From a virus: a DNA stretch of 30,663 nt. Of the stretch, positions 1 to 22,587 are shown one piece after another. How positions within the stretch are numbered: the stretch's first letter is position 1; each line of letters begins with the position of its first letter. The notes under the pieces are model-generated. The model was given only the letters and a program-made list of their open reading frames with translations. It did no database searches and was not told where the DNA came from. A program made the translations under genes and the position numbers. The DNA is taken from positions 19,070 through 49,732 of the IMG/VR virus record IMGVR_UViG_3300030451_004769, one strand, 5' to 3'.

Positions 1-275
1 CTGAATCAGAACAGATTGCTCCTTGTTTGAATTATTATCAATATCATTTGAAAGGTATAAGTCTGTTGCCAAGACACGATTATGGTGCTTATCCTCAGAT
101 GCCTTACGAAGCTATTGATGAGAAGACTTATCAGAAACAGGTTTCAAAGTTAGGTAAGTTATCATTTGGTGTGATTAAACACGAAGAAGCAGAAATAGAT
201 AAATTCTGTAATAATGATTCGTGTGAAATTATTCCAATGACAGGTGATAACGATGACCAAGAATATGCAAATTAA
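1..275 (+). CDS. nrdJ: Class II (adenosylcobalamin-dependent) ribonucleotide reductase, C-terminal fragment
   Basis: The reading frame is open to the left edge (codons from base 3), so only about the last 90 residues of a larger protein are present. The visible part has the YPQMPYEAIDEKTYQKQV segment typical of the C-terminal region of B12-dependent ribonucleotide reductases. A tail with two cysteines (CNNDSCEII) fits the mobile redox-active C-terminus that re-reduces the active site in NrdJ enzymes. The enzyme makes deoxyribonucleotides for phage DNA synthesis, consistent with dUTPase and DNA polymerase genes just downstream. A TTG at 27 could be mistaken for a start but lies inside the open frame. 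It could instead be a class I or III enzyme, but the motif and cysteine tail favour class II. Family assignment is from remembered motif similarity, not alignment. Confidence 0.68.
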   Translation, partial: ESEQIAPCLNYYQYHLKGISLLPRHDYGAYPQMPYEAIDEKTYQKQVSKLGKLSFGVIKHEEAEIDKFCNNDSCEIIPMTGDNDDQEYAN

Positions 276-294
276 CAAAAGCGGACAGGCAGAC

Positions 295-318
295 GACACA
301 CCTGTAGAAAAATGTGTC
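295..318. promoter_or_regulatory. Inverted repeat between nrdJ and the TonB-receptor gene
   Basis: GACACA (295-300) and TGTGTC (313-318) form perfect 6-base arms around a 12-base loop. It lies in the 73-base gap between the reductase stop and the receptor start, about 20 bases before the receptor Shine-Dalgarno. It could be a transcript-processing hairpin, weak terminator or operator. No U tract follows, so a classical terminator is unlikely. Confidence 0.35.
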
Positions 319-348
319 AATGTTCAACACAACAATAGGAGAATGATT

Positions 349-3078
349 ATGAATTATCGTAATCTAATCTCAGTTCTAATGATGTCTTTTACTATTGTCT
401 TTGGACAAGCAGTAACAGGATACGTTGGTACTGAAGATGGTCCACTCGTTGGAGCGAATGTAGTTGTTGAAGGAACTGAACTTGGTGGCGTTAGTGATGA
501 CGCAGGTAAATTTGTTATCGAAACAGGTTCAGGTACTTTTGATATTACTGCATCGTACATCGGGTACATCGCCCAAACACAAAGCGTGGAGGTAGGCGAT
601 ATAGTTGCTTCAGTTAGCTTCAATTTAGTAGCTGACGTTGTAGCACTATCAGCATTAGAGGTCTTAGCTTCACGTGCTGATGAAACAACACCTGTTGCTT
701 ATACGAATGTTAGTAAAGAAGAAATGGAAATCAGACTTGGTTCACAAGACATTCCAATGATTCTTAATACTACACCTTCAGTATATGCGACTCAACAAGG
801 TGGCGGTGCGGGTGATGCTCGTATCAATGTACGTGGTTTCAACCAAAGAAATGTTGCTGTGATGATAAACGGTGTTCCTCAGAATGATATGGAGAACGGA
901 TGGGTTTATTGGTCTAATTGGGATGGAGTAGGAGATGCTACTTCTTCAATTCAGATGCAAAGAGGTCTATCAGCTGTTAATCTCGCAACACCATCAATTG
1001 GTGGAACTATGAACATAATAACTGACCCTGCGGCTCAAGAAAAAGGCGGTAAGTTCAAGCAGGAAGTCGGAGAGGGTGGATTTCTTAAAACCACTCTGAA
1101 CTATAACTCAGGTCTTATTAAAGATAAGTTAGCTTTGAGTGGAACTATAGTTCGTAAAACAGGTGACGGATTCATTGATGGAACTTGGACAGATGCTTGG
1201 GCATACTACGTAGGTGGTTCATATGCTGTAAGTAATGACCAACGTTTCGAATTATATGCGATTGGAGCCCCGCAACGTCACGGACAGAATCTATATAAAC
1301 AGAATATTGCTACTTACTCACAAGAGTTAGCAGGTAGTATTGATGGTTATAATGATTCTGCTTATGTTTCAGGCGAAAAGTTTGAACACGAAGCAGGTAG
1401 ATTCTTTAATCAGAATTGGGCGCCTGTAGACCCATCATACAAAGGACAGCAGTATTGGTATATGTATGGTGCGAGAACTACAGATAGAAAAAATTCTGAT
1501 ATGTTAAATGAAAGAGAAAACTTCTTTCATAAGCCTCTTGTCAATTTGAATCATTTTTATGATATCAATGAAGAGATGAGGTTAAGTTCTGTTCTGTATT
1601 GGTCAGGTGGCTCAGGTGGAGGAACAGGAACTTATGGTAGCGTAAGTAGGACACCCGCGATAGAAGGAAATGCATGGTATTCAAGTTCACCTTGGATGTG
1701 GGATTGGAATGCCGAGATTGAGCAGAACTCTGCTAATGTAGATACTGCTTGGAATGATGTTGAAAATCGTTCAACAGGTATACTTCGTAATTCAATCAAT
1801 AGACAAAACACTTACGGTTTAATTTCAAAGTTAAACTATGATGTCTCAGACGAACTTGAAGTTCAAATTGGTATTGATTGGAGAACTGCAGGTATTGAAC
1901 ACGCTCGTGAAGTTCGTGATTTACTTGGTGGTGATTACTATGTAGATTACGCTGATGATAATGCACCTGATGGTAAAGTTGTTCGTTTAGGTGACATTAT
2001 TGCATATCACAACGAAACAACGGTTGATTGGTTCGGAGCTTTCTTACAAGGTCAATATTCTACAGAGAAGATTAATCTTTATGGTATGGGTGGTATTTCT
2101 ACTATCGGATATACTTACAAAGATTTCTTTTCAGTAGAACAAGAACTTGTAGAGGCACCATCTATTACTACTTTTCAAGTTAAAGGTGGTGGTAGATATA
2201 ATCTTGATGACAGACTTTCAGCATTTGCTAATGTTGGGTATGTTCAGAAGCCACCAATCTTAGATAATGTTATCGATTATGATGGTAACATATCTTCAAA
2301 TCCTGATAACGAAAAATTCACATCTTTTGAAGTAGGTGGTGAATATGGAAGTGACTTAGTTGCTATCAAGGGTAGTTTTTATAACACTCAATGGAAAGAT
2401 AGAAACCTTACTAAGTCTGTTACTACAGGACAAGGTGACTCAGGTGATACTGACATCATTTATCTTACAGGTGTAAATCAAAGCCATAGTGGTTTTGAGA
2501 TTGAGTCTAAAGTTGCTCTACACGAAATGGTAGACTTAGACTTATCTGTTAGTATTGGTGATTGGTATTTTGATGGCGATGCCAAAGGTGATTATACAGA
2601 GATGGAATACAATGATGATAATCAAATCATTGGACAAACATCTACAGAGTATGAATATGCTCTTAATAATCTAAAAGTTGGTGATATGCCACAGACTGCT
2701 TATGTAGGAGGTCTTACAATTAAGCCTGTTAAGGGTTTAAGTGTTCAAGGTCTTTACAGATGGTACGACAATCATTATTCTGATTGGAGTCCTGATAGTC
2801 GTGAAGTTGAAGGTGACGCTGATAGAGCACAAGTATGGAAAACTCCATCTTATGGTAAGTTAGACTTACACTTGTCTTACAAGTTACCTGAAATTGCAGG
2901 ACTTGATATGACCTTACACGGTCATTTGTTCAACGCTCTTGATAATGTTTACATCCAAGATGCTGTTGACAACTCAAAGTATAATGGGTATGGTGATAAG
3001 ATGCACTTAGCTCATAATGCTGAAGTCTTTCTTGGTACTCCAAGAAGCTTCAACCTTGGCCTATCGGTCAATTTCTAA
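349..3078 (+). CDS. TonB-dependent outer-membrane receptor
   Basis: This is a 909-residue outer-membrane beta-barrel receptor that would use TonB/ExbBD energy to import a bound ligand; the substrate is unknown. Residues 1-20 are a signal peptide ending in VFGQ, with likely cleavage before A21. Residues about 22-92 are a carboxypeptidase-regulatory-like domain (VTGYV...GPLVGANVVVEG). Residues about 120-230 are the plug (INVRGFNQRNVAVMINGVPQ, then MQRGLSAVNLATPSIGGTMN). The rest is barrel, ending in an aromatic residue (LGLSVNF). The start at 349 is chosen because AGGAG (337-341) sits 7 bases upstream; in-frame GTG 244 and ATG 343 fit less well. It lies between phage nucleotide and replication genes. 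Hand counts of two 60-base lines gave about 40% G+C, against 23-38% in sampled neighbours, hinting at later acquisition from a host. The N-terminal extension is typical of FCB-group receptors. Confidence 0.93.
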   Translation: MNYRNLISVLMMSFTIVFGQAVTGYVGTEDGPLVGANVVVEGTELGGVSDDAGKFVIETGSGTFDITASYIGYIAQTQSVEVGDIVASVSFNLVADVVALSALEVLASRADETTPVAYTNVSKEEMEIRLGSQDIPMILNTTPSVYATQQGGGAGDARINVRGFNQRNVAVMINGVPQNDMENGWVYWSNWDGVGDATSSIQMQRGLSAVNLATPSIGGTMNIITDPAAQEKGGKFKQEVGEGGFLKTTLNYNSGLIKDKLALSGTIVRKTGDGFIDGTWTDAWAYYVGGSYAVSNDQRFELYAIGAPQRHGQNLYKQNIATYSQELAGSIDGYNDSAYVSGEKFEHEAGRFFNQNWAPVDPSYKGQQYWYMYGARTTDRKNSDMLNERENFFHKPLVNLNHFYDINEEMRLSSVLYWSGGSGGGTGTYGSVSRTPAIEGNAWYSSSPWMWDWNAEIEQNSANVDTAWNDVENRSTGILRNSINRQNTYGLISKLNYDVSDELEVQIGIDWRTAGIEHAREVRDLLGGDYYVDYADDNAPDGKVVRLGDIIAYHNETTVDWFGAFLQGQYSTEKINLYGMGGISTIGYTYKDFFSVEQELVEAPSITTFQVKGGGRYNLDDRLSAFANVGYVQKPPILDNVIDYDGNISSNPDNEKFTSFEVGGEYGSDLVAIKGSFYNTQWKDRNLTKSVTTGQGDSGDTDIIYLTGVNQSHSGFEIESKVALHEMVDLDLSVSIGDWYFDGDAKGDYTEMEYNDDNQIIGQTSTEYEYALNNLKVGDMPQTAYVGGLTIKPVKGLSVQGLYRWYDNHYSDWSPDSREVEGDADRAQVWKTPSYGKLDLHLSYKLPEIAGLDMTLHGHLFNALDNVYIQDAVDNSKYNGYGDKMHLAHNAEVFLGTPRSFNLGLSVNF

Positions 3079-3084
3079 AATGAT

Positions 3085-3113
3085 AAATCGGGGGGATTAA
3101 TTTCCCCCCATTT
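3085..3113 (+). terminator. Hairpin terminator after the TonB-receptor gene
   Basis: GGGGGGA (3090-3096) pairs perfectly with TCCCCCC (3103-3109) around TTAATT. Flanking AAAT/ATTT can extend the stem with one bulged base. A T-rich run follows. It begins 7 bases after the receptor stop, so it probably ends that transcript and insulates the replication genes. Confidence 0.75.
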
Positions 3114-3128
3114 ATTTCAAAAAAATAC

Positions 3129-3157
3129 TTGACCTTTAATGGTTTTTTTCGTAAGTT
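3129..3157 (+). promoter_or_regulatory. Possible sigma70-like promoter for the replication module
   Basis: TTGACC (3129-3134) resembles a -35 box, and TAAGTT (3152-3157), 17 bases further on, is a weak -10 match. It lies directly after the terminator and 27 bases before the dUTPase start, where a promoter is needed if the terminator is efficient. The -10 is poor, so the call is tentative. Confidence 0.35.
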
Positions 3158-3183
3158 CAAACGTAGATTGAGAGAGTACAATT

Positions 3184-3693
3184 ATGAATACACTAAGAAT
3201 AAAAGTCTTAGATGAATCTTTAGAATCTTTATATAAGAAAAGAGTTAACGTAGAAGGAGATGCAGGAGTTGATTTATATTTTCCTGATGAAGTTACTATT
3301 CCTTCAAAAGCATTAGGACTAAAAGTAGATTTAAAAATACAGGCAGAAATGGTACAAGAAGTCAATTCACAATTAATGACTAACATACCAAAAGAAATGT
3401 TGAAAGGAATGAACATAGAAGAAAGAAGTCTATCTTATATGGTCTTACCTCGTTCATCTATAATAAAGACTCCATTACGAATGTCGAATAGTATTGGAAT
3501 AATGGATGCAGGATATAGAGGTAACTTTATGGTTCCTATAGATAATTTATCAGATGAAGACTTTATAATTGAAAAACATACAAGATTGTTTCAAGTAGTT
3601 TCATCTAATTTAAATAATATTGATGTTAAAATAGTAAATAAATTAAGCACTTCAAAACGTGGTACAGGTGGTTTTGGCTCAACAGGTAATTAA
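3184..3693 (+). CDS. dut: dUTP diphosphatase (dUTPase)
   Basis: A trimeric-type dUTPase of 169 residues that hydrolyses dUTP to dUMP and pyrophosphate, keeping uracil out of DNA and feeding dTMP synthesis. All five motifs are visible in order: I GDAGVDLY, II PRSS, III NSIGIMDAGYRG with the catalytic Asp, IV TRLFQVV, and the glycine-rich C-terminal arm V RGTGGFGSTG. The stretch between motifs I and II is longer than in typical bacterial or phage enzymes, with an extra helix-like segment (MVQEVNSQLMTNIPKEMLK). The stop overlaps the polymerase start by one base (TAATG), implying translational coupling. GAGAG (3169-3173) lies about ten bases upstream of the ATG. Confidence 0.9.
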   Translation: MNTLRIKVLDESLESLYKKRVNVEGDAGVDLYFPDEVTIPSKALGLKVDLKIQAEMVQEVNSQLMTNIPKEMLKGMNIEERSLSYMVLPRSSIIKTPLRMSNSIGIMDAGYRGNFMVPIDNLSDEDFIIEKHTRLFQVVSSNLNNIDVKIVNKLSTSKRGTGGFGSTGN

Positions 3694-6212
3694 TGTATAA
3701 AGATATATTTTTTGATTTAAAAACTAAGAAAGTACATTTATGGGATGATGTACGAGGCTATGAATGTTTTAAGTATAAGCCTTATGCATATAAGAAAGAC
3801 CCTACAGGTAAATATACATCATTATATGGTGATAAATTATCTAAGGTTTATAGATTTGACCCTAATGAAGATGGTCTTTTTGAATCAGATGTTCCTGCAG
3901 AAACACGAGTTTTAGTTGACAAGTATGCTGACTCTGATGAAGTTTCAAAAGGTCATAAAAAATTCTTTTTTGATATCGAGGTCAAAGTAACAGAAGGTTT
4001 TCCAAGTCCTCACGAAGCTCCTAATGAAATAACATCAATAGCTTTTAATGATTGTACAGATAATACTTTACATTGTTTAGTATTAGACCCTGAAAATAAA
4101 GTGGACATAAATCATCCTGATATTTTAAGAAATAATTTTAAAGTAGAAACGTTTAAAAGTGAATTTGATATGTTACAAAGGTTCTTTTTACGTTATAAAC
4201 AAATAAGTCCTACTATCATATCAGGTTGGAATACAGAAAACTTTGATGTTCCTTATTTATATAATCGTGCTTGTAAGATTGTAGGTTCAGGATTAGCTTC
4301 TACATTAAGTCCTATCAATATTGTTCGGTGGTCTGAATTTAAAAATAGACATAAGATAGCAGGAGTCTCTCATTTAGATTATTTATATCTTTACAAAAAA
4401 TTTACATATACAGAAAAGTCAAGTTATAGATTAGATGCTATTGCTGAAGATGAACTTGGTGAAAAGAAAGTTGAGTATGAAGGTACACTTAATGACTTAT
4501 ATGACAATGACAGAACTACATTTGTTTTATATAACTTACAAGATGTTAAAATTGTAGAAGGTCTCGACACTAAATTAAATTTTATTGGTATTACACAAGC
4601 TTTGTGTCACACAGGTCACGTCCCTTATGAAAATGTGTTTACATCATCTCGATATCTCGAAGGTGCAATATTAGTATATTTAAGAAATCTTGATATCGTA
4701 GCTCCTGACAAGAAACCTAAACCTAAAAAAGATACTGATGGTGGACAATTTGCAGGTGCTTATGTGGCTGACCCTCAAAAGGGTAAACACGATTGGGTAT
4801 TTGATTTAGATGTTACGTCAATGTATCCTTCTGTTATTATGTCGTTGAACATATCACCTGAAACTAAACTTGGTAAATTAGAGAGTTGGGAACCTCAAGA
4901 TTTTATACGTGATGTAGAAAAAACATACAGAATAAATGATGATTATGGAAACGAAGTAGCATCGATGAGTTATAATGACTTTAAAAATTATGTTACAGAA
5001 AACAAAATATCGATATCAGCAAATGGTGTGTTGTATCGTAATGATAAGGCGGGATTGATTCCTGCTATTTTATCTAAATGGTTCGATGAAAGAGTAGAGT
5101 ATAGAAAGTTAGCTAAGAAGTATGGTAATGATGGTAATACAGAACGTTACGAATATTTTGATAGAAGGCAGTTAATTCAAAAGATTATGTTAAATAGTTT
5201 GTATGGTGTACTCGGTCTATCAGTATTCAGATTTTATGATATTGACAATGCAGAGGCTACTACGTTAACAGGTCAAGCATTGATTAAATTTAGTCGTACT
5301 ATTACAAATCATTTTTATAATAATGAATTGGGTACTGACAAAGACCACGTGATTTATATTGATACAGATTCAATCTTTGCATCAGCATTGCCATTGGTAA
5401 AACATAGATATCCTAAAGAAAATACTAACTCACAGGCTATGATGACTAAACGTATTCTTGATATAGCGTCTGAACTTCAAGAGTATTTAAATAATAGTTA
5501 CAATTACTTTGCAAATAAATTTTGTAATATAGAAAAACATAGATTTGAAATCAAACAGGAGGTCATTGGTATATCAGGTCTCTTTATAGCTAAGAAACGT
5601 TATGGTATGAAAATCATAAACGATAATGGAGTTGAAGTCAATAAGATGTTAGTTAAAGGTATTGATACGGTTCGTTCTAACTTTCCTATAGCTTGTGGTA
5701 AACTCTTGAAAGAAGTTCTTGATGATATTCTTGCCAATGTTCCTAAAGAAAAAGTAGACGAACGGATACTAAATTTTAAATCATCTATGAATACTATGCC
5801 AATAGATGGTCTTGCTATGCCTACAGGTGTAAAAGGTCTAAAGAAATATATAGAAAAGAAAACTAAAAATCAAAAATTTACTAAATTCAAATCAGGTGCT
5901 CCTATACACGTTAAGTCTGCTGTGAATTATAATGATTTATTATTACATTTTGAGGTTTCTAAACAATATTTATTTATAGGGTCCGGAGAGAAAATCAAGT
6001 GGGTTTATCTAACAAAAAATCCATTAGGACTCGATAGTTTAGCTTACAAAGGTTATGAAGACCCTAAAGAGATTCTACAATACATTCGAGATTACATAAA
6101 TTATGAGAAGATGTACGAGAAGAACTTGTACAATAAAATTATGATGTTTTACGAGGCTATGAATTGGTCGCCTCCTGTAAATAAACAGAAAACATTAGAA
6201 AGGTTTTTTTAG
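3693..6212 (+). CDS. Family B replicative DNA polymerase (T4 gp43-like)
   Basis: An 839-residue DNA polymerase with 3'-5' proofreading exonuclease, somewhat shorter than T4 gp43 (898). Exonuclease motifs: FFFDIEVKV (D94, E96), GWNTENFDVPYLYNR (D185) and YNLQD (Y280, D284). Polymerase motifs: DVTSMYPS (D373), KIMLNSLYG (about 497-505) and YIDTDS (D557, D559). All catalytic acids are present, so both activities are expected. The extreme C-terminus, QKTLERFF, matches the QxxLxxFF sliding-clamp-binding (PIP-box) pattern, and the clamp gene lies two genes downstream. The gene is coupled to dut by TAATG and to the glutaredoxin by a one-base overlap. Gene content around it is that of T4-like marine myophages. 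Confidence 0.96.
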   Translation: MYKDIFFDLKTKKVHLWDDVRGYECFKYKPYAYKKDPTGKYTSLYGDKLSKVYRFDPNEDGLFESDVPAETRVLVDKYADSDEVSKGHKKFFFDIEVKVTEGFPSPHEAPNEITSIAFNDCTDNTLHCLVLDPENKVDINHPDILRNNFKVETFKSEFDMLQRFFLRYKQISPTIISGWNTENFDVPYLYNRACKIVGSGLASTLSPINIVRWSEFKNRHKIAGVSHLDYLYLYKKFTYTEKSSYRLDAIAEDELGEKKVEYEGTLNDLYDNDRTTFVLYNLQDVKIVEGLDTKLNFIGITQALCHTGHVPYENVFTSSRYLEGAILVYLRNLDIVAPDKKPKPKKDTDGGQFAGAYVADPQKGKHDWVFDLDVTSMYPSVIMSLNISPETKLGKLESWEPQDFIRDVEKTYRINDDYGNEVASMSYNDFKNYVTENKISISANGVLYRNDKAGLIPAILSKWFDERVEYRKLAKKYGNDGNTERYEYFDRRQLIQKIMLNSLYGVLGLSVFRFYDIDNAEATTLTGQALIKFSRTITNHFYNNELGTDKDHVIYIDTDSIFASALPLVKHRYPKENTNSQAMMTKRILDIASELQEYLNNSYNYFANKFCNIEKHRFEIKQEVIGISGLFIAKKRYGMKIINDNGVEVNKMLVKGIDTVRSNFPIACGKLLKEVLDDILANVPKEKVDERILNFKSSMNTMPIDGLAMPTGVKGLKKYIEKKTKNQKFTKFKSGAPIHVKSAVNYNDLLLHFEVSKQYLFIGSGEKIKWVYLTKNPLGLDSLAYKGYEDPKEILQYIRDYINYEKMYEKNLYNKIMMFYEAMNWSPPVNKQKTLERFF

Positions 6213-12262: not shown

Positions 12263-12495
12263 GAAAAGAAATATTAGATGCTAGCAGATTACACTTCAAG
12301 GCTCACATTGAAAAACATAGAATCAATGTTGAGAATCTTTTGAAAAATCCTACAGGAGTCGCAGAACATCCTGACATTATGGAAACGATAGAAAAAGAGT
12401 TAGAAATTATTGCTGAGTATGATGATAAGTTAGAAGTGTTGGACAAATACTTCTTTATGCAATATGTAGATGACAAAGAGGTTTTAAATGGCTAA
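12259..12495 (+). CDS. Hypothetical small helical protein
   Basis: A 78-residue acidic protein that looks entirely helical (RLHFKAHIEKHRINVENLL, IMETIEKELEIIAEYDDKLE), with coiled-coil-like spacing in the second half. It has no recognised family, signal peptide or membrane segment. It overlaps both neighbours (4 and 8 bases), linking the RHH-like gene to the first glycosyltransferase in one transcript. It might be an adaptor, but nothing in the sequence proves it. Confidence 0.65.
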   Translation: MRKEILDASRLHFKAHIEKHRINVENLLKNPTGVAEHPDIMETIEKELEIIAEYDDKLEVLDKYFFMQYVDDKEVLNG

Positions 12496-13915
12496 GATGA
12501 AATTACCAAAATTAAAAAAGATTGACCCTAATAAAGTTAAGAAGAAAAAAATTCTTCTATTATCTGATGATTGTAGAATGAACTCAGGTGTTGGAGTTAT
12601 GTCTTTAGAAATTATTAGACAAACGTGCCACTTGTATGATTGGGCTCAAATAGGAGGTGCAATTAAACATCCTGATGAAGGAAAACAATTTGATTGTTCA
12701 CAAGATTTAAGAGAGTTTACAGGCGTTGATGATGCTTATTTACACGTATATCCAACATCAGGTTATGGTAATGATGAGATGGTAAGACATTTGATGATTA
12801 AAGAAAAACCTGATGCCATAATGATTTATACAGACCCAAGATTTTGGAAGTGGTTATTTGAAATGAGTCACGAAATTAGAACACAAATACCAATATTCTA
12901 TTATAACATATGGGATGATTTACCATATCCACATTGGAATGAACCATTCTATGAATCAGTTGATTGCTTAATGAACATAACAAAACAGACTTGGAATATT
13001 GTACGTAACGTTAGAAAAAATGTTCCTGTAAAAGATTGGGAGTGTACTCTTGTACCTCATGGTATACACGAAGAAGTATTCTATCCTATACAAGAAGATA
13101 GTGAAGAACACAAAAAGTTTATTGAGTTTAAAAAGAAGACATTAAGAAATAAAGATACTAATTTTATTATCTTATGGAATAATAGAAACATCAGAAGAAA
13201 ACTTCCTGGTGATGTTATACTTGCATATAATCATATGTTAGAACAATTAACTGAAGAACAACGTAAAAATTCATTGTTGATAATGAAGACTGCTCCTGTT
13301 GATAATAATGGTACAGACTTGATGGCAGTTGCAAAACATAATCTAAAACATGGAGATTGTATGTTCATATCAGATAATCTTCCACAAGAAGAACTGAATT
13401 ATCTATACAATATGGCTGACGTTACAATTAATATGGCATCAAATGAAGGATTTGGATTAGGTACAGCAGAATCATTAATGACAGGAACTCCAATAGTTGT
13501 TAATGTTACAGGTGGTTTACAAGACCAATGTGGATTTAGAAAAGAAGATGGTTCACTTTTAACAAAAGAAGATTACACCGAAGAGTGGGGCTCTAATCAC
13601 GATGGTAGATATAAAGACCATGGTTCTTGGGTAAAGCCTGTTTGGCCTGCGTGTCGTTCATTACAAGGTTCTCCTCCTACTCCATATATCTTTGATGATA
13701 GATGTAGATGGGAAGATATTGGTGATAAGTTACTTGAGTGGTATAATACACCCAAGGAAGATAGAGAAAAGGCAGGTTTAGAAGGTAGAGAATATTGTCT
13801 ACGTGAAGACACAATGTTATCAGCAAAAAATATGGGTAAGGCTGTAATTGAATCGGCTGAAAATTGTTGGAAGAATTGGAAACCTGTTAAACAATTTCAA
13901 GTATACGAGGTATAG
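12488..13915 (+). CDS. GT-B glycosyltransferase (GT4-like)
   Basis: A 475-residue transferase with two Rossmann-like halves. The N-terminal half begins KKKILLLSDDCRMNSGVGVM, an acceptor-side glycine-rich loop. The C-terminal half has FIILWNNRNIRRKLPGDVIL, then NLPQEELNYLYNMADVTIN and EGFGLGTAESLMTGTPIV (about 318-336), the E-x7-E donor-site pattern of GT4 enzymes. It transfers a sugar from a nucleotide sugar with retention of configuration; donor and acceptor are unknown. It opens the glycan island. Unlike most GT4 enzymes it has a long C-terminal part rich in Trp and acidic residues. Confidence 0.88.
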   Translation: MAKMKLPKLKKIDPNKVKKKKILLLSDDCRMNSGVGVMSLEIIRQTCHLYDWAQIGGAIKHPDEGKQFDCSQDLREFTGVDDAYLHVYPTSGYGNDEMVRHLMIKEKPDAIMIYTDPRFWKWLFEMSHEIRTQIPIFYYNIWDDLPYPHWNEPFYESVDCLMNITKQTWNIVRNVRKNVPVKDWECTLVPHGIHEEVFYPIQEDSEEHKKFIEFKKKTLRNKDTNFIILWNNRNIRRKLPGDVILAYNHMLEQLTEEQRKNSLLIMKTAPVDNNGTDLMAVAKHNLKHGDCMFISDNLPQEELNYLYNMADVTINMASNEGFGLGTAESLMTGTPIVVNVTGGLQDQCGFRKEDGSLLTKEDYTEEWGSNHDGRYKDHGSWVKPVWPACRSLQGSPPTPYIFDDRCRWEDIGDKLLEWYNTPKEDREKAGLEGREYCLREDTMLSAKNMGKAVIESAENCWKNWKPVKQFQVYEV

Positions 13916-13916
13916 A

Positions 13917-15173
13917 ATGAAAAAATTAGTAACGGTTATAGGACCTATAGGTACTCGTAGTGGTTATGGTTCACACGCAAGAGATATTGTAATCTCATTA
14001 TTAGATTTAGGTTATGATGTCAAGACTATGCCTATTAGATGGGGGATGACTCCACAAAATGCATTGAATATTAATAGTGCAAGAGATAAACGTATAGTTG
14101 ATACAATATCGTTTGATGGTAAGATTGATAGACAGCCTGACATTCACATACACATAAGTGTTCCTACAGAGTTTCAAAATATTGGTAAACTCAATATAGG
14201 TATTACTGCAGGAGTGGAATGGACACATCCTAATCCTAATTGGGTAAATGCTATGAATAGAATGGATTACAATTTAGTGCCTTCAAACTTTGTAAAAGAA
14301 GTTATGAGTATGACTTATACAGATGAAAATAAAAAAACAATAGCGTGTACAAAACCTATAGAAGTTTTATTTGAAGGTTATGATGAAACTATTTACAAAC
14401 CTGTAAACGAATATTCAGAACTATTGGTCAAAGAATTAGATGTTATAAAAGAAGATTTTTGTTACTTATTTGTTGGACATTGGCTAAGTGGTCCTTATGG
14501 TCACGATAGAAAAGATGTTGGAAAATTAGTATACAATTTTTTAGATACATTTAAAGACACAAAAGATGCACCTGCTTTGATAATGAAAACATCAACAGGT
14601 ACATTTTCTCCTGTAGATAAATACAGATGTTTAGATAGAATGAGAGAAATAAAACATAGTTTTGGTTCTGATGTGAAGTTACCTAAAATTTATTTCGTAC
14701 ATGGTGAATTTTCAGATGAACAAATGAATGAGTTGTATAATCATCCTAAAGTAAAATCAATGGTATCATTTACTAAGGGTGAAGGATATGGAAGACCTTT
14801 ATTAGAATTTAGCACTACAGGAAAACCTGTTATAGCAACAGGTTGGTCAGGACATACAGATTTTCTTGATGGTGAATACTCTGTTTTACTACGTGGTAGA
14901 TTAGATAAAGTACATAACGATTCAGTTCCAAAAGACTATCGACATAGTGAATCACAATGGTTTAACGTTGATGAAGAAGCAGCAAAAATGTCTTTAAAAT
15001 ACGTCTTTGATAATTATAAACAATTTCAAACTAAAGGTTATGCTCAAAAAATGAAATCTACAGAATTTACACTAACTGCAATGACAGATAAATTTGGTAA
15101 AATGTTGGATGAGATGAGTAAAGATTTACCTCAACAAGTTGGAATAAAATTACCCACACTAAAGAAGGCTTAA
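13917..15173 (+). CDS. GT-B glycosyltransferase (GT4-like), second copy type
   Basis: A 418-residue transferase related in layout to the preceding one. It starts MKKLVTVIGPIGTRSGYGSH with the glycine-rich N-terminal loop. The donor-site region is YNHPKVKSMVSFTKGEGYGR followed by PLLEFSTTGKPVIATGWSG (from about residue 278). The ATG at 13917 follows CGAGG (13906-13910). An upstream TTG-initiated extension in the same frame overlaps the previous gene by 68 bases and is not preferred. Two adjacent GT4-type genes suggest sequential sugar additions. Donor and acceptor are unknown. Confidence 0.86.
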   Translation: MKKLVTVIGPIGTRSGYGSHARDIVISLLDLGYDVKTMPIRWGMTPQNALNINSARDKRIVDTISFDGKIDRQPDIHIHISVPTEFQNIGKLNIGITAGVEWTHPNPNWVNAMNRMDYNLVPSNFVKEVMSMTYTDENKKTIACTKPIEVLFEGYDETIYKPVNEYSELLVKELDVIKEDFCYLFVGHWLSGPYGHDRKDVGKLVYNFLDTFKDTKDAPALIMKTSTGTFSPVDKYRCLDRMREIKHSFGSDVKLPKIYFVHGEFSDEQMNELYNHPKVKSMVSFTKGEGYGRPLLEFSTTGKPVIATGWSGHTDFLDGEYSVLLRGRLDKVHNDSVPKDYRHSESQWFNVDEEAAKMSLKYVFDNYKQFQTKGYAQKMKSTEFTLTAMTDKFGKMLDEMSKDLPQQVGIKLPTLKKA

Positions 15174-15174
15174 T

Positions 15175-15642
15175 ATGGAAGAAAAAACAAGTTGTCCAAT
15201 ATGTTCTATAAAAGAACAAAGTAGTTGTTTTGTTGAGAAAACTGATGAAGGATTTGAATCATATTTATGTTTTGATTGTGGTTATACTACAAACTCGGCT
15301 CTTAAATTAAATGAATGTGATAATGAAACACAAAACTATACATCGTTAGTTAAAGAATTAAAAATAGAAGATACAGAAAGACAATTAGAATGGTATCCAT
15401 CTGTTATAAATATGGGTACAATGGGTATGATTTATCCTGAAGGGACTCCTAATCTTTGGTACTATAAAGTTGCTAAGGTAAAAGAAATACCTGAAAGTGA
15501 AAGAGTAAATTACCCTAAAGAAGATGGTACGTTTTATGAAACATTTCTTGATGTTGATGGTGCAGAATCATTTAAACCACAAGAATTTCTTGAAGCTTGT
15601 AAGTGTATTGGTATAACACAAACGGTAAACGTTGATGGCTAA
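15175..15642 (+). CDS. Zinc-ribbon hypothetical protein
   Basis: A 155-residue protein. The N-terminus has two CxxC-type pairs (CPIC at 7-10 and CFDC at about 32-35), a classic zinc ribbon of the kind used in nucleic-acid- or protein-binding modules. The remainder, with QLEWYPSVINMGTMGMIYPE and NLWYYKVAKVKEIPE, is unrecognised. The gene interrupts the run of glycosyltransferases and is 1 base from the previous stop, so it is co-transcribed. Whether it has anything to do with glycans is not shown. Such proteins occur in other marine T4-like phages. Confidence 0.7.
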   Translation: MEEKTSCPICSIKEQSSCFVEKTDEGFESYLCFDCGYTTNSALKLNECDNETQNYTSLVKELKIEDTERQLEWYPSVINMGTMGMIYPEGTPNLWYYKVAKVKEIPESERVNYPKEDGTFYETFLDVDGAESFKPQEFLEACKCIGITQTVNVDG

Positions 15643-16066
15643 ACAAACTTATAGTTGGGGTAAAGTTAAAAGAGGAGATATAATATCTTTTAGATATCAA
15701 GGTAGTGATGGTCGTTCTACTAAAAGAAGTGTTATTGTTCTTGAAAAGAGATTGAAACATCCTAACTCTAAAAACCTTCTGTTACACGGATACCAATTAG
15801 ATGTAAGAAATGTTCCTGCTATTAGAAGTGAATCTGCTTTGTTAAATTTGTTTGCCAAAATTGGTACTCCTCAAGAGGTAGACAAAGATAATAACATAAT
15901 AAAAATATTAGTTGAAGGAAAAAGTCCTCAGGTATATTCAAGGACACGTACTTTAATTCAAAAGTATGGAATCTATAGAACGTATTATTATGACAGAGCT
16001 ACACGAAACCAAGTTTTTCTTGAACCTGTAAAAATAGACCCAAAAGTATTAGATGCAATATTATGA
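15635..16066 (+). CDS. Hypothetical protein, beta-rich N-terminus
   Basis: A 143-residue protein. The first part (YSWGKVKRGDIISFRYQG, then STKRSVIVLEKRL) looks like a small SH3/KOW-like beta barrel; the rest is basic with many Tyr and Arg (YSRTRTLIQKYGIYRTYYYD). The family is not recognised. The start is the ATG at 15635, overlapping the preceding stop by 8 bases; a TTG codon just before is in frame but unlikely. Its stop overlaps the start of the deleted glycosyltransferase gene. A structural or nucleic-acid-binding role is possible but unproven. Confidence 0.65.
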   Translation: MAKQTYSWGKVKRGDIISFRYQGSDGRSTKRSVIVLEKRLKHPNSKNLLLHGYQLDVRNVPAIRSESALLNLFAKIGTPQEVDKDNNIIKILVEGKSPQVYSRTRTLIQKYGIYRTYYYDRATRNQVFLEPVKIDPKVLDAIL

Positions 16067-16592
16067 TTAGTTACGCCATAACATCACATAATGAAACGTT
16101 TGAATTAAAACGTTTACTTGATTATCTAATGTCTTACAAAGACCAAGAACATTAAATAAAGATTTTGCGTCACAAAAGAATTACTTAAATTCTATCTGTA
16201 CAAAAGAATGGATATTTCAATTAGATTCAGATGAGGTTCCATCTCAGCTTTTAATTGAAAACATAAAGGCTATAATCAATGCTAATCCTAAAGTAGAAAT
16301 GTTTTGGGTACCAAGAATAAATACGGTTGAGGGTATTACTGAAGAACATTGTAAAATGTATGGATATCAAATGGATACCAAAGGAAGAATAAATTGGCCC
16401 GACCCTCAAGCAAGAATTTATAGAAATAGTAAAGATATAAAATGGGTAAGACCTGTACACGAAATATTGACAGGAGCAAAAGTTACTACAGCTATACCCT
16501 TTGAAGAAGACTTTGCATTAAGACATACAAAGAATATAGAAAAACAAATACAACAGAATAGGTTTTACAATGAGGAAATTTCAGGTACTTGA
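16063..16592 (+). pseudogene. Family 2 glycosyltransferase with internal deletion and frameshift
   Basis: A normal start (ATG 16063, overlapping the previous stop) gives MISYAITSHNETFELKRLLD... for 30 residues and then stops at 16153-16155. From about 16154 the +2 frame continues the same family: LNKDFASQKNYLNSICTKEW, then IFQLDSDEVPSQLL with the DxD metal site, then MFWVPRINTVEG, to a stop at 16592. In intact WaaE/KdtX-like GT2 enzymes the two parts are separated by roughly 35-40 residues carrying the nucleotide-binding D-D-x-S motif. That stretch is missing here, with a length not divisible by three. The protein is therefore probably inactive. Alternatives are a read or assembly deletion. 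The second part, from ATG 16299, could make a useless 97-residue peptide. Confidence 0.72.
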
Positions 16593-18252
16593 TTGTACGT
16601 TAAGAGATGGTGGCTATTATACTGATTGGTCTTTTGATAAAGATTTGGTCAGAAGAATGGTCAAGGCTCTTGATGGTAACAAAGTTGATATCATAGAACT
16701 TGGATATAAATCACCTGTTAAAGGTGGTCCATATAGAAAATGTAATGATGGTTTCATTCGTTCAATAATAGACTTTGAATTAAATCATTCCAAGTTTTCA
16801 TTTATGATTGACGCAAAAGATTATTTTTTAGAGCAAAGTATAGACTTACAATTATTACGTGATATAATAAAACCAAAGTTTGAGTCTCCTTTTGAAGTGT
16901 GTAGAGTTGCATTGAAGTTTTCTGAAATAGAACAATCAATGGAACTGATTGGCTACATTCAGAATCTTGGCTATCAAGTATTTGTTAATTTGATGCAGAC
17001 TTCTATATTAGAAGATTCTAATATTAAATACTTTAATAAAAGAATGAAAGAATTTGGTGTTGAAAAGACATATATAGCTGATAGTTTTGGTGCATTACTC
17101 CCACTTCAAGTTGGTCAAATCTTTACTAATCACGATGTAGATGGTATACATACTCACGATAATATGAATTTAGCCTTTGCAAATTGTGTAACTGCAATAG
17201 ACAATGGGGCTACTTGGTGTGATGGTACAATAACAGGTATGGGTAGAGGTGTAGGTAATGTCTATACAGAACAATTACTTCAATGGAGAGGTGAGATAAC
17301 AAATGATATGTTAGATGTAGTTGACGAGTTTCAACAGATGAAATTGAAACATGGTTGGGGACATAATCCATTGTATATGTATTCAGGTCTTAATCACATA
17401 CATCCTTTATACGTTCAAGATTTAAATCAATCTAATCTTAATGGTTCTCAATTATTTACTGCAGCATCAAAGTTAAAAAATACACATTCTTATGACTCTA
17501 AATTATTAGTGGAGTTGAAAGAACAAAGAGCAGTTGTGATAATACCTGCTAGGTACAAGTCTTCAAGATTTCCTGGTAAACCACTTGCAAAGATAAATGG
17601 TAAAGAAATGATATTACACGTTTGTGAAAAGGCAGAACAGGCAGTTGGTATTGAAAACGTATACGTAGCTACAGAAAATGAAGAGATAGCAAAAGTCGTT
17701 AGAGGAAATGGCTATTCAGTTGTAATAACTTCTGATAATTGTTTGACAGGTACCGACAGAGTAGCAGAAGCCTCTCAAGAAATAGATGCTGATATATTTG
17801 TTAACGTACAAGGTGATGAACCTGTTATTAATCCTGAAGATATTTTGAAAGTGATTGAGGCAAAAAAGAATAATCCTGATTCGATTGTTAATTGTTTTTC
17901 TAAACTACATCAAGATGAAGACCCAGCAGATAGAAAAATACCTAAAGTAATTATGGACTTAGATAACAATTTATTATATTCAAGTAGAGCTCCATTACCA
18001 TCACAAAAAGAATTGAATAAGGACAATTTGATTGATATTTATAAACAAGTATGTATTTATGCGTTCAATAAAGAACATCTACAAAAGTTTACACAGGAAT
18101 CAAAAACTCCATTAGAGAGAGAAGAAGACATCGAAATAAATAGGTTTTTAGAAAAAGGCATCAATGTTAAAATGTTACGTTCTGACCACGTTTCGTATGC
18201 AGTAGATTATCCTGAAGATATTAACGTAATTGAAAAGATGAGTAAAGTATGA
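16570..18252 (+). CDS. Bifunctional aldolase (DRE-TIM/HMGL-like) - CMP-Kdo synthetase-like (KdsB) fusion
   Basis: One uninterrupted 560-residue chain. Residues 1 to about 315 form an HMGL-like TIM barrel: LDCTLRDGGYYTDW (R12, D13) and the metal-binding HTHDN (H194, H196) followed by GMGRGVGN, as in 4-hydroxy-2-oxovalerate aldolases, which join pyruvate and an aldehyde. Residues about 320-560 match KdsB: VVIIPARYKSSRFPGKPL, NVQGDEPVI (412-420), LYSSRAPLP and AVDYPEDI. KdsB transfers CMP from CTP to the 2-keto-3-deoxy acid Kdo. Inference: the fusion makes a 2-keto-3-deoxy sugar acid and activates it as a CMP-sugar. The start overlaps the deleted GT2 gene by 23 bases. The exact sugar cannot be told. 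Confidence 0.9.
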   Translation: MRKFQVLDCTLRDGGYYTDWSFDKDLVRRMVKALDGNKVDIIELGYKSPVKGGPYRKCNDGFIRSIIDFELNHSKFSFMIDAKDYFLEQSIDLQLLRDIIKPKFESPFEVCRVALKFSEIEQSMELIGYIQNLGYQVFVNLMQTSILEDSNIKYFNKRMKEFGVEKTYIADSFGALLPLQVGQIFTNHDVDGIHTHDNMNLAFANCVTAIDNGATWCDGTITGMGRGVGNVYTEQLLQWRGEITNDMLDVVDEFQQMKLKHGWGHNPLYMYSGLNHIHPLYVQDLNQSNLNGSQLFTAASKLKNTHSYDSKLLVELKEQRAVVIIPARYKSSRFPGKPLAKINGKEMILHVCEKAEQAVGIENVYVATENEEIAKVVRGNGYSVVITSDNCLTGTDRVAEASQEIDADIFVNVQGDEPVINPEDILKVIEAKKNNPDSIVNCFSKLHQDEDPADRKIPKVIMDLDNNLLYSSRAPLPSQKELNKDNLIDIYKQVCIYAFNKEHLQKFTQESKTPLEREEDIEINRFLEKGINVKMLRSDHVSYAVDYPEDINVIEKMSKV

Positions 18253-19049
18253 AAATAGGTATAGTTGGTCAAGGTGTTGTTGGTGAGGCAATCAAAGAAG
18301 GATTTGAATATTTAGAACACGATGTATTAGTACACGATACTAAGTTTTGGGACACGAGTGTTTCGGATTTGATTGAAACTGAGATGTGTTTTTTATGTGT
18401 TCCTACACCTGAAAGAGAAGATGGTAAATGTGATACCTCTATTGTTGAGAGTGTGGTACGAGAATTACTTCAAGTAGATTATAGAGGTTTGATTGCAGTC
18501 AAGTCTACCGTAACTCCTGGTTTAGTTGATAGTCTAAGTAAAAAATTTAACATAAAGAATATATGTTTTGTGCCTGAGTTTTTGAGAGAACGATGTGCAT
18601 CATATGATTTTATACACAATCACGACCTTTGTGTAATTGGTGTTTATTCGGATGAAGATTATGAACTTGTTAAAAAGGCTCATGGTAATTTACCAAAGTC
18701 GTTTAGACAATGTACTCCTATAGAAGCAGAATTTGTTAAGTATTTCAATAACGTTTATAATGCAACACTAATTACATTTGCAAATTCTTTTAGTGCAATA
18801 TGTGAATCGATGGATGTAGACTATGGTAAAATCAAAGAAGTAATTACACAACGAAATCATATTCAAGACATTTATTTAAACTCATCAGAAGACACTAAGG
18901 GTTTTGGAGGAGCGTGTTTACCAAAAGACACATCTGCATTGAATGAGTTGGCAAAGAGTGTAGAGAAATATGACATTAGTTTTTTTGAAGATATACTAAA
19001 ACAAAATCGTGAGTTTAAAACAACGGTTTTCAAAGGAATGAGAAAATGA
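18249..19049 (+). CDS. UDP-glucose/GDP-mannose dehydrogenase-like protein, short form
   Basis: A 266-residue oxidoreductase. MKIGIVGQGVVGEAI is the NAD-binding GxGxxG; CVPTP (50-54) and KSTVTPG (85-91) follow the family order. EFVKYFNN carries the catalytic Lys (K164) and Asn, and GFGGACLPKDT holds the catalytic Cys (C223). The usual C-terminal UDP-sugar-binding domain of the roughly 390-440-residue enzymes is absent. If active it would oxidise a sugar C6 alcohol to a carboxylate, or use an unusual, smaller substrate. It overlaps the aldolase-KdsB fusion gene and the next SDR gene by 4 bases each, so the three are translated together. Confidence 0.8.
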   Translation: MKIGIVGQGVVGEAIKEGFEYLEHDVLVHDTKFWDTSVSDLIETEMCFLCVPTPEREDGKCDTSIVESVVRELLQVDYRGLIAVKSTVTPGLVDSLSKKFNIKNICFVPEFLRERCASYDFIHNHDLCVIGVYSDEDYELVKKAHGNLPKSFRQCTPIEAEFVKYFNNVYNATLITFANSFSAICESMDVDYGKIKEVITQRNHIQDIYLNSSEDTKGFGGACLPKDTSALNELAKSVEKYDISFFEDILKQNREFKTTVFKGMRK

Positions 19050-19987
19050 AAATATTAGTTACAGGTGCAGCAGGCTTTTTAGGTTCACATCTATGTGATG
19101 ATTTACTCGAACAAGGTCATAAAGTAAGGGGTGTAGATAATTTCTTTCGAGGTAAAAAAGAGAATTTACCTGAACACAAAAACTTTAAATTTGTAGAATG
19201 TGATTTATTAGAATCAACAGCTGCTCGAGGAGTTAAATTAGAAATATACACTTGGCAACCTGATATAATTATTCATTATGGGGCAATAAATGGCACACGA
19301 TATTTTTATGATATGCCATATCAAGTATGTAGGGATAATATCATAATGACACAAAATGTTTTAGATGCTTGTAAATGGTATCCAAATGTAAAGAAGATAG
19401 TTTACGCATCCTCTTCAGAAATCTATGGTCCAGCTCCAAAGGTTCCTACTGAAGAAACTGAAGAGATGATTCTTTATCCACAAGCTGATAGAGATTCATA
19501 CGCCTCGTCAAAGGGTATTGGAGAGTTTTTAGTTAGACTATGGTGTAAACAACACGATAGAAAATATTTAATCGTTAGACCTTTTAATACTTATGGACCA
19601 AGAATGGCTACAGGTGGATATGGTCAAGTGATACCTGAGTTTATCGAAAGAATACAATCAGATGAAGATTTTTATTTGTATGGAGATGGTAAACAAACAA
19701 GGTCATTTTGTTATGTGAAAGACCATACAAGGATTGTTACTGAATTGTTAGAAACTGCTGATAACGAAATATTAAACATAGGGTATGACGAAGAAATAAC
19801 AATTAAAGAATTGGCAGAAGTTGTACACGAAGTTGTTGGTAAAGATTTTTCAGTTAAGTATAAAGATGCTTGGCCCAATGACACTAAATGGAGAAAGCCA
19901 AGTTTAGAGAAATTATTTCAATTTACATCTCATAGAGATTACGTGAGTTTAAGAGATGGTATAAAGGCTATGATAAATGAAAAATAA
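19046..19987 (+). CDS. NAD-dependent nucleotide-sugar epimerase/dehydratase (extended SDR)
   Basis: A 313-residue extended short-chain dehydrogenase. It has VTGAAGFLGSH (GxxGxxG, NAD binding) at the N-terminus, the active-site Ser region ASSSEIYGP (121-129) and YASSK (Y152, K156). RPFNTYGPRM and YGDGKQTRSFCYVKD are typical of UDP-glucuronate decarboxylases and dTDP- or UDP-sugar epimerase/dehydratases. The preceding dehydrogenase-like gene would suit a UDP-glucuronate or similar substrate. The precise reaction is not decidable. It overlaps the preceding gene by 4 bases and the next by 11. Confidence 0.87.
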   Translation: MKILVTGAAGFLGSHLCDDLLEQGHKVRGVDNFFRGKKENLPEHKNFKFVECDLLESTAARGVKLEIYTWQPDIIIHYGAINGTRYFYDMPYQVCRDNIIMTQNVLDACKWYPNVKKIVYASSSEIYGPAPKVPTEETEEMILYPQADRDSYASSKGIGEFLVRLWCKQHDRKYLIVRPFNTYGPRMATGGYGQVIPEFIERIQSDEDFYLYGDGKQTRSFCYVKDHTRIVTELLETADNEILNIGYDEEITIKELAEVVHEVVGKDFSVKYKDAWPNDTKWRKPSLEKLFQFTSHRDYVSLRDGIKAMINEK

Positions 19988-20762
19988 AACTAAGAAAATA
20001 TTAGAAGTCTTTAAATCTCTTGATAGTGTAGAGAAAAGGATGGATGAAATTAAAGATGCCTACAAAGACGAAACAATGTATGTAGTGGCATCAGGTCCAT
20101 CTCTAAACAATTATGCTCCTAATAAATTAAAAGAAGTTCTATCCGATAAATTAGTAGTTTGTATTAAACAATCTTATCATCAATTAAAAGACATTACAGA
20201 TATTTTATTATTAAACTTTACTAATTTATCTCCATATACTTTTAATCCAAATACAATAGTTACTTGGTTGTATTGGTTTCAAAATCATCCACAGATAGTC
20301 TTTGAAAAGTTTAAAGGTGATTTATTGTTTCCAATATATAGAAATGATGATATACCAAATAAGATGACTCAATCAATTGCTTATAAAGGTGATTATGAAA
20401 ATATGATGTTTGATAAGGGACTACCAAGACCTTGGGGACCTGGACTAATGTATGAATTGGCGATACCCTTAGCAGTTCATTTTGGTGTAAAAAAGATAGT
20501 CACTTTAGGTTGGGATGTAGGCAATTTAGACTTGTGGGAAGGTCAAGATGATTCAGAACGACATTTCGTAGACCATTATTATTCAGATGAAACGCAGTTA
20601 TTCGATAGATTTAAAATAGATGCTACTGAAATAAGACTAATAGCTAATTCTATGGTTGGTATTTACAATTATTTACAGACAATAGGTATTGATTTTAACA
20701 TCATATCAGATAGAAATCCTGTAGACTCTGAAGTGCCAAGAATAAAAATAGAGGATATTTAA
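19977..20762 (+). CDS. DUF115/GT42-like putative glycosyltransferase
   Basis: A 261-residue protein. After a charged helix, MYVVASGPSLNNY (34-46) is the G-P-S-L loop shared by DUF115 (Maf/MptE-like) proteins and GT42 sialyltransferases. A second conserved block runs from WGPGLMYELAIPLAVHFG to KKIVTLGWDVG, resembling the CMP-binding side of those families. With a CMP-sugar synthetase-like domain two genes upstream, a CMP-sugar transferase is attractive but not proven. Alternatives are a Maf-type flagellin glycosyltransferase relative or an inactive homologue. Confidence 0.55.
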   Translation: MKNKTKKILEVFKSLDSVEKRMDEIKDAYKDETMYVVASGPSLNNYAPNKLKEVLSDKLVVCIKQSYHQLKDITDILLLNFTNLSPYTFNPNTIVTWLYWFQNHPQIVFEKFKGDLLFPIYRNDDIPNKMTQSIAYKGDYENMMFDKGLPRPWGPGLMYELAIPLAVHFGVKKIVTLGWDVGNLDLWEGQDDSERHFVDHYYSDETQLFDRFKIDATEIRLIANSMVGIYNYLQTIGIDFNIISDRNPVDSEVPRIKIEDI

Positions 20763-21797
20763 ATGAAATTACAAAATAGATACATTCTTGGAACACATAT
20801 AATGTTCTTTGAAATAGACATGGTTGTTGAACATATACAGAGTATAATTAATGCTGTTGAATTAGTTGAAAATAAAGAAATGGTCACTATAGAATTATTC
20901 TTTAACATTTCAGAATATTTTGAAAAAATAGATACAAGTCAAACAACAAAAGAAGAGTTGATAGATAAGTTTAAAACTATGACAAAACCTCTTGAAGATA
21001 CAGGAGTAGATTTAAACGTAGTAATTTATGACGATAATAAACCATATGCACAAATAGATTACAGAAGAGACTTGAATTATAAAAGTTGTAAACATTATGA
21101 TTATATTATATGGGGCGAAAGTGATTGTTTACATCCAAGACAAATGTTTCACGTGCTTGAAGAGATAAAGAACTATGCAAATCAAAATAACATACATAGA
21201 TTTGTGACTACGTTTGCAGTTAGAAAGATGTGGGATGAATCTTGGACGGTATTGGAACATAATGATTTTACAAATTTACCATTTCATAGTATGAAAACAG
21301 AACCTGAGTTAGCACAAACTACTCCACATAGTATTAGATATAATATGACGATAGAAGAGATGGATAAAATAAATGAAAGAGCAGAAGAACTTGATGTTAA
21401 GATGATTAGTTATCCAAAGTTTGATGGTTCAGGATTAGTTCTTACAGGTGATTTGGTTCAAAACAATGTCAATGTACCACATTGTATTATTGGTCATCAG
21501 ATTGATGATACAAGTATGATGGAAAGTTGTAGAACTATGATGGGTAATCAATACATTCAATTCGTAGTTAAAAATATTTTAAAGGTACATAATAGAAATC
21601 ACACTAAAAAGAGATTGTATGCACTCGATATGGATACTAATAGTAAATTAAGTGAAACAGATGGTGCACGTTATAGTAATTGGTTTAAAGAATTAAATGC
21701 AATGGCTAAAAAGAACTTTAGTGTGTTTGGCCCAAATCAATCAAAGTATTTTAGATATAAAGATTTTGAAAAGGTTATGGGTATAGATGAAGGCTAA
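20763..21797 (+). CDS. Putative GT-A glycosyltransferase
   Basis: A 344-residue protein, not assigned to a family with certainty. The opening RYILGTHIMFFEIDMVVEHI is strand-helix, and YDYIIWGESDCLHPRQMFHV (about 113-132) looks like a GT-A metal site with E-S-D in place of D-x-D. The region VPHCIIGHQIDDTSMMESC has a histidine where GT-A enzymes often place a second metal ligand. No signal or membrane segment is seen. It starts one base after the preceding stop and overlaps the GT29-like gene by 11 bases. Confidence 0.55.
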   Translation: MKLQNRYILGTHIMFFEIDMVVEHIQSIINAVELVENKEMVTIELFFNISEYFEKIDTSQTTKEELIDKFKTMTKPLEDTGVDLNVVIYDDNKPYAQIDYRRDLNYKSCKHYDYIIWGESDCLHPRQMFHVLEEIKNYANQNNIHRFVTTFAVRKMWDESWTVLEHNDFTNLPFHSMKTEPELAQTTPHSIRYNMTIEEMDKINERAEELDVKMISYPKFDGSGLVLTGDLVQNNVNVPHCIIGHQIDDTSMMESCRTMMGNQYIQFVVKNILKVHNRNHTKKRLYALDMDTNSKLSETDGARYSNWFKELNAMAKKNFSVFGPNQSKYFRYKDFEKVMGIDEG

Positions 21798-22587
21798 ATT
21801 AGAATGGCAAGTTCCTGAACCTGAAAGACTTCATGGAGAACATAATACAAAATTAGAAGTTGACTTTGATACGATAGCATCAGTTTTTAAAAATGCAGTA
21901 ATAGATAAAGAATATTATGATTACATAAGAGATAAAAAAGTTGTTATCGTAGGACCAGCAGGATATTTACGTGGACAAAACAGAGGAGATTTCTTTACAG
22001 ATAATTTTGATATCATCGTAAGAATAAATAGGTCATTTCCATTAGAAAAAACTGATTGGACAGATTTAGGATATAGAACTGATATTAGATATCATAATGG
22101 TAGTGAAAATCCTGTGGAAGGTGGTCCATTATTCTTAGAAAGAAGTAGTAATCTTGAATATTTATCAGTAATTTTTCCAAGACATTTAGACTACTTTGAC
22201 CATCATATAAATGAAATCGAAAGAAAAATAAATGAATCAGATGAAGAGGTTAAACCTAAGTTGCACACATATACTGACATTGAACAATTTATAACATTTC
22301 ATCACATTATGAAGACAAGACCAAATGCAGGAGTTGCAACTATATTAGATTTATTGAATTACTCTCCAAAACAATTACACATTTCAGGTATGACTTTCTT
22401 TACAGGTAAATCTTATATTGATTCGTACTCAGAAAAGGCTTTGAAGGGAGAGGAACATCACGTACAAAGACAAATAACGAATCACGCACAAGGACCACAA
22501 AGAGACTTGGTAAGAATGTTATACGAAAATTATTCAACAATAACTTTAGATGATGAAGTTAAAGAAACATTAGGAGTTAAAGGATGA
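21787..22587 (+). CDS. GT29-like sialyltransferase family protein
   Basis: A 266-residue protein with sialylmotif-like blocks. Motif L: KVVIVGPAGYLRGQNRG then FDIIVRIN (51-81). Motif S: TRPNAGVATILDLL followed by LHISGMTFF (177-205). Downstream histidines (H224/H225 and H233 in TNHAQGPQRD) could be motif III/VS. GT29 enzymes transfer sialic acid, or probably Kdo-type acids in plant homologues, from CMP donors. No membrane anchor is present, unlike eukaryotic Golgi enzymes. The CMP-Kdo-synthetase-like domain at 17500-18252 would supply a fitting donor. Acceptor unknown. Confidence 0.72.
   Translation: MKAKLEWQVPEPERLHGEHNTKLEVDFDTIASVFKNAVIDKEYYDYIRDKKVVIVGPAGYLRGQNRGDFFTDNFDIIVRINRSFPLEKTDWTDLGYRTDIRYHNGSENPVEGGPLFLERSSNLEYLSVIFPRHLDYFDHHINEIERKINESDEEVKPKLHTYTDIEQFITFHHIMKTRPNAGVATILDLLNYSPKQLHISGMTFFTGKSYIDSYSEKALKGEEHHVQRQITNHAQGPQRDLVRMLYENYSTITLDDEVKETLGVKG

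Follow-up and report, generated by a model that had tools for sequence, protein, structure and literature searches.

A TonB-dependent receptor of Marinimicrobia type, preceded by a candidate regulatory pseudoknot, in T4-like ocean phages

Among the classic receptors of phages are TonB-dependent receptors, and a gene for one inside a phage genome therefore bears on phage–phage competition as well as on nutrient supply. Such a gene lies in the window analyzed here, a stretch of 30,663 nucleotides (G000:19070–49732, from a virus record of 49,732 bases), and raises the question of what it does for its carrier. A functional receptor would mean that common ocean phages install their own outer-membrane uptake channel, going beyond the rewiring of metabolism inside the cell.

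Genomic setting and distribution

An earlier note on this DNA had described a bacterial-type TonB-dependent receptor carried like a moron gene between phage nrdJ and dUTPase/polymerase genes, with its own Shine–Dalgarno sequence and terminator. This core reading holds: phage genes are matched on both sides, a Shine–Dalgarno-like sequence and a terminator-like hairpin are present (Table 1), and receptor-less sister phages keep the same flanks. That note mentioned neither the pseudoknot before the gene, nor that the receptor comes from Marinimicrobia, nor that the cassette is mobile.

Table 1 Features of the window at and around the receptor gene
Feature	Position	Strand	Details and evidence
nrdJ C-terminal end (adenosylcobalamin-dependent ribonucleotide reductase)	3..275	+	phrog_367; continues upstream in G000
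H-type pseudoknot RNA, receptor 5' leader	281..318	+	covariation in alignments A2 and A3
Pseudoknot elements	S1 285–289/301–305; S2 295–300/313–318; linker 306–312		A-rich linker
Shine–Dalgarno-like AGGAG	337..341	+	sequence
TonB-dependent outer-membrane receptor, 909 aa	349..3078	+	ORF, Pfam, AlphaFold model, Foldseek
Receptor layout (residues)	1–20; 22–100; ~103–120; ~121–232; ~233–909		signal-peptide-like; CarboxypepD_reg_2; TonB-box region; plug; barrel
Terminator-like hairpin, strong, closing the receptor unit	3090..3109	+	similar hairpins 3' of the gene in related phages
Promoter-like TTGACC-17-TAAGTT before dut/polB	3129..3157	+	sequence comparison; weak consensus match, not returned by the scan
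dUTPase	3184..3693	+	PF00692, phrog_135
T4-like family B DNA polymerase (PolB)	3693..6212	+	phrog_262, E 1.5e-181

The upstream part of nrdJ best matches TIGR02505 (1.3e-94, just under that model's cut-off), pointing to the AdoCbl-dependent RTPR type. The gene is only seemingly split, because a 10-N scaffold gap (G000 19060–19069) lies within it directly 5' of the window; a frameshift or true split gene was ruled out, as the independent contig L001 runs continuously across the gap. Its nrdJ–receptor junction agrees at 427/432, and the same junctions recur in many independent phage contigs, ruling out the chimeric contig for which the earlier note had proposed a junction check.

Clamp loader genes are also among the neighbours in the window (Pfam, PHROGs), and the phage carries a T4-type replication set comprising gp43-like PolB, gp44/gp62-like clamp loader, UvsX, SSB and DnaB-like helicase, from which it is presumably virulent. 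Neither Pfam nor PHROGs recognized virion genes in it. The same phage also has a long run of surface-sugar genes (window 12488–27429), including glycosyltransferase, UDP-glucose dehydrogenase, epimerase and GtrB-like genes.

A pattern-based scan of IMG/VR found at least 317 stretches encoding receptor relatives, among which one population may be sampled repeatedly. The best 80 of these are 74–97% identical; most of these 80 loci show the order nrdJ–receptor–(extra genes)–polB, with nrdJ adjoining in nearly all, and the INPHARED phage collection held only distant receptors (at most about 31% identity). PolB-anchored loci comprised 35 with the receptor, 27 with nrdJ but without it, and 12 undecided. 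In 27 of 62 loci nrdJ and polB are present but the receptor is missing, most of these 27 having a gap of 56–157 bp in its place; the gene is thus accessory and dispensable for infection. On the PolB tree there are at least four switches between presence and absence. A site resembling the promoter-like element in Table 1, e.g. TTGACT-17-TATATT, also occurs between nrdJ and polB where phages lack the receptor.

Four receptor-less loci hold a glutamine-synthetase-like ORF in this gap. Because the slot also houses glutamine synthetase and peroxiredoxin genes, it fits an auxiliary-metabolism hotspot. Phage glutamine synthetase genes stand there beside or in place of the receptor (L048 12823–13845, L117 8958–9941 and L124 8955–9941), and domains PF00120/PF03951 were confirmed on the L048 protein. 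The genes tested 3' of the receptor in relatives encode glutamine synthetase, methyltransferase and lipoprotein-like ORFs lacking a Pfam match. No gene for a SusD partner lipoprotein, which would mark a SusC-type glycan importer, was found beside the receptor, dut/polB coming next in the window and other genes in the relatives tested. Three further observations concern related phages: the gap of the receptor-less L121 holds a likely tRNA gene after position 3354, again marking an insertion-prone slot; a 316-aa ORF appears to interrupt nrdJ in L046 and L102 in an intron- or intein-like manner; and L023 carries a manA RNA (RF01745) at 3054–3252.

The receptor protein

The ORF, the Pfam domains and the predicted fold agree with the earlier description of a full-length 909-residue receptor with signal peptide, regulatory-like domain, plug and barrel. 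Pfam placed CarbopepD_reg_2 at residues 22–100 (1.4e-12) and Plug PF07715 at residues 112–220 (E 1.2e-13, over the curated cut-off). An AlphaFold model built with 84 sequences (mean pLDDT 78.6, pTM 0.76, the plug region being less confident) predicts an N-terminal domain, a plug and ~22 barrel strands. Its nearest PDB folds by Foldseek are Fiu, PqqU/YncD, FhuA and FecA, with E to 1e-32; profile and fold neighbours together are siderophore, copper and PQQ receptors.

The best-conserved parts are the TonB box and the plug. The motif LEVLASRADE.TPVAYT is nearly invariant across 84 phage and host sequences, and its position before the plug suggests that it acts as the TonB box; the plug, likewise nearly invariant, is 90% identical between phages and hosts. 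Outer loops, assigned from the predicted strands of the model, are less variable in phages (entropy 0.59) than in hosts (1.14), a difference that may partly reflect the shallower phage clade, although the loop-to-strand ratio is lower too. Near the start codons of phage receptors, e.g. at window 358–368, the nucleotides of CGTAATCTAAT (Arg-Asn-Leu-Ile) are kept far beyond those of the remaining signal peptide.

A pseudoknot in the leader

Upstream of the receptor, the conserved element of the leader starts with GCGG and can form an H-type pseudoknot in which ACAGG pairs with CCTGT (S1) and GACACA with TGTGTC (S2), CAGAC and the linker AGAAAAA being left unpaired; the start codon lies 30 nt on. 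Among 48 distinct leader sequences, 98.1% of cells are paired, with compensatory changes at 5/11 pairs; a wider set with 30 distinct leader sequences shows compensatory changes at 6/11 pairs, and pairing amounts to 97–98% of cells across alignments A2 and A3. The covariation score was reached by 0/500 shuffles, and slid structures fail. Single-sequence folding energy gives no information on this leader, as expected of a pseudoknot.

The element stands ahead of all phage receptors with a readable start region. A pattern scan of IMG/VR added at least 78 loci: the receptor is the next gene in 71, and the other 7 end within 140 nt, apparently in a receptor start. It was found neither in receptor-less phages nor in host receptor leaders. 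Across 245 Marinimicrobia genomes there were only weak matches, the two best of which proved on inspection to lie inside coding sequence, and a search of 4227 Rfam families at E up to 10 gave no match except unrelated chance ones. A role as an nrdJ recoding signal was ruled out: the spacer is of variable length, and in L013, L016 and L036 entire genes separate nrdJ from the pseudoknot, which assigns the latter to the receptor rather than to nrdJ.

The conserved pairing marks the element as a candidate new regulatory RNA family, small, strongly covarying and outside Rfam, and a separate find from the receptor. With less certainty, it may govern how the receptor mRNA is translated or how stable it is, perhaps in response to a metabolite. 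More tentatively, and in our estimate less likely than not, it could represent a leader class of its own that phages invented or captured, either riboswitch-like and ligand-sensing or bound by a protein, which would make the cassette a nutrient-sensing and uptake module spreading among T4-like Marinimicrobia phages.

Marinimicrobia origin

In a search of bacterial genomes, the close relatives of the receptor were nearly all from Marinimicrobia, an abundant group of which most members are uncultured. All 10 Marinimicrobia genomes compared have a close ortholog at 60–68% identity, plus roughly 6–17 other TBDT-like matches near 30%. At the fullest sampling, all phage receptors and a single contig of 4.3 kb binned with Marinimicrobia (L159) form one clade (100/100), which lies either within the host orthologs or beside them as their sister; monophyly of the host orthologs is not rejected (p 0.09). 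The tree of the receptor family proposed in the earlier note thus contains a viral branch, and the outcome that would have counted against its reading, a receptor confined to bacteria, is the opposite of what was found, since the phage copies form a clade of their own and sister phages show the empty site. Two independent acquisitions, suggested by the grouping of L090 with hosts (AU p 1e-7), were dropped: that result stemmed from sparse sampling, and the addition of host-like phage receptors returned the single clade.

By its phylogeny, the phage receptor derives from a conserved Marinimicrobia (SAR406) receptor, and from this gene origin only we infer that Marinimicrobia are the hosts of the phages. 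The Marinimicrobia-binned L159 (986–3736 and 3876–4265) carries a DegT-like aminotransferase and tandem receptors; its receptor falls inside the phage clade and lacks the pseudoknot, which may reflect phage-to-host transfer or mis-binning. Upstream of the host ortholog, a near-perfect CRP-type palindrome, TGTGATGTCTGTCACA, is present in L167, L176, L194, L199, L210 and L213, with variants in L170 and L178, suggesting control of the host gene by a CRP/FNR-family regulator.

Selection and exchange between phages

The dN/dS of the receptor against its relatives is 0.07–0.17, a range like that of dnaB and polB, and the proteins are still 80–90% identical where four-fold sites are far diverged; by these measures the receptor is under purifying selection. 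Pairwise identities among dnaB, uvsX, polB and ssb correlate with one another (rho 0.70–0.82), whereas receptor identity does not track these replication genes (rho 0.06–0.12) and tracks nrdJ weakly (0.43), indicating that the receptor has been exchanged between phage lineages. Seven loci have it elsewhere in the genome, near e.g. Hsp20, peptide deformylase or polynucleotide kinase.

The transferred unit is seen directly in two phages. L117, with the receptor at the nrdJ site, and L383, with it at another site, have in common 2,966 bp at 95.5% identity between unrelated flanks; this sharply bounded stretch starts at the TTTCACATAC box before the pseudoknot and ends at the terminator region. 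The box occurs in 67/119 leaders, the window leader being without it. The receptor thus appears to travel in a self-contained mobile cassette, which sometimes opens with the TTTCACATAC box and otherwise consists of the pseudoknot leader, the receptor gene and the terminator, in that order.

Role during infection

Taken as a whole, we give somewhat better than even chances to the reading that the gene is a phage-adapted Marinimicrobia TonB-dependent receptor on a mobile cassette, importing the host receptor's substrate during infection. Origin, synteny, purifying selection, phage–phage exchange and the leader RNA were established computationally; for the infected cell, we infer that the phage receptor would be exported to the outer membrane, would couple to host TonB/ExbBD and would take up the small substrate that the host receptor imports, so keeping a limiting nutrient supplied once host synthesis shuts down. 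The earlier note had offered import, change of the host surface and a decoy for phage tails as roles. Conservation of the TonB box, plug and outer loops favours a functional importer, taking up the ligand of the host receptor, over a blocking decoy; import is the best fit among the offered roles, and a pure decoy fits poorly. Loop conservation might nevertheless stem from another conserved surface interaction.

The main rival that remains is surface remodelling with superinfection exclusion, in which the phage receptor replaces or dilutes the host receptor of rival phages, shielding resources late in infection or via debris. FhuA-like TBDTs do serve as phage receptors, T5 blocks FhuA by its lipoprotein Llp, and the solved FhuA–Llp complexes 8b14 and 8a60 are among the fold matches of our model. 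Exchange independent of the replication genes, together with the accessory distribution, would suit a gene of phage–phage conflict, and a small lipoprotein-like gene lies 3' of the receptor in 9 loci. However, blocking or decoy action has no need of the TonB box and plug, the very parts that are best conserved, and the phage outer loops show no diversification relative to hosts, leaving exclusion a possible but rather unlikely account.

Import of cobalamin for the neighbouring NrdJ is attractive because that enzyme is of the adenosylcobalamin type; it adjoins the receptor in nearly all loci, and its identity correlates with that of the receptor above other genes. The host genomes point elsewhere: 9/10 Marinimicrobia genomes have one cobalamin riboswitch, and in 7 of these 9 it is followed by another TBDT-like gene, which is shorter; no cobalamin riboswitch was found at 10 host-ortholog loci or across 6 phage sources. 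Many nrdJ-bearing phages also lack the receptor and some receptors stand away from nrdJ, so that the cobalamin reading is disfavoured and very unlikely. A transduced or mis-assembled bacterial passenger without phage function, to which the bacterial nature of such receptors and a GC of 0.38, over the phage average, might point, is largely refuted and scarcely credible given identical junctions in many independent contigs, dN/dS near 0.1, a phage-typical four-fold-site GC of 0.11, a separate phage clade and a phage-only leader RNA.

With import as the preferred reading, receptor-carrying phages probably change the uptake of the infected cell through its surface. Phage management of nutrient supply at the cell surface thereby becomes testable with one gene, for which natural phage pairs with and without the receptor are available.

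Comparison with known systems

Small H-type pseudoknots serve as regulatory RNAs in the preQ1-I, SAM-II and SAM-V riboswitches and in the T4 gene 32 leader. Like them, the present element is a short pseudoknot in a 5' leader, has a linker rich in A and lies upstream of a start codon; its conserved bases are unlike theirs. Among solved transporters, Fiu, PqqU (YncD), FhuA and FecA share the plug and 22-strand barrel with the predicted model (TM-score on target about 0.7–0.8) at only 12–15% identity, so the ligand cannot be named from the fold. The Marinimicrobia (SAR406/Fidelibacterota) ortholog is far closer, with 55–71% identity and the same domains, TonB box, plug and loops; it differs in being chromosomal and in having no pseudoknot leader, sister-clade leaders having the CRP-type palindrome instead.

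The only precedent found in the literature for a phage-carried TonB-dependent receptor is the SusC-like receptor of the marine megaphage Mar_Mega_1, which its authors interpret as an auxiliary gene for uptake (PMC9723777). The sole full TonB-dependent receptor match to our model in the viral structure library BFVD, A0A8D9FQQ5, is probably of this type and belongs to a different family, with 12% identity over the fold alignment. The megaphage receptor and the present family are both TonB-dependent receptors of marine phages; they differ in phage lineage, abundance and synteny. The passage on Mar_Mega_1 mentions no leader RNA, and its receptor type is known from a few megaphages only, whereas the receptors reported here carry the pseudoknot, have a siderophore/PQQ-type fold and occur in hundreds of T4-like sequences.
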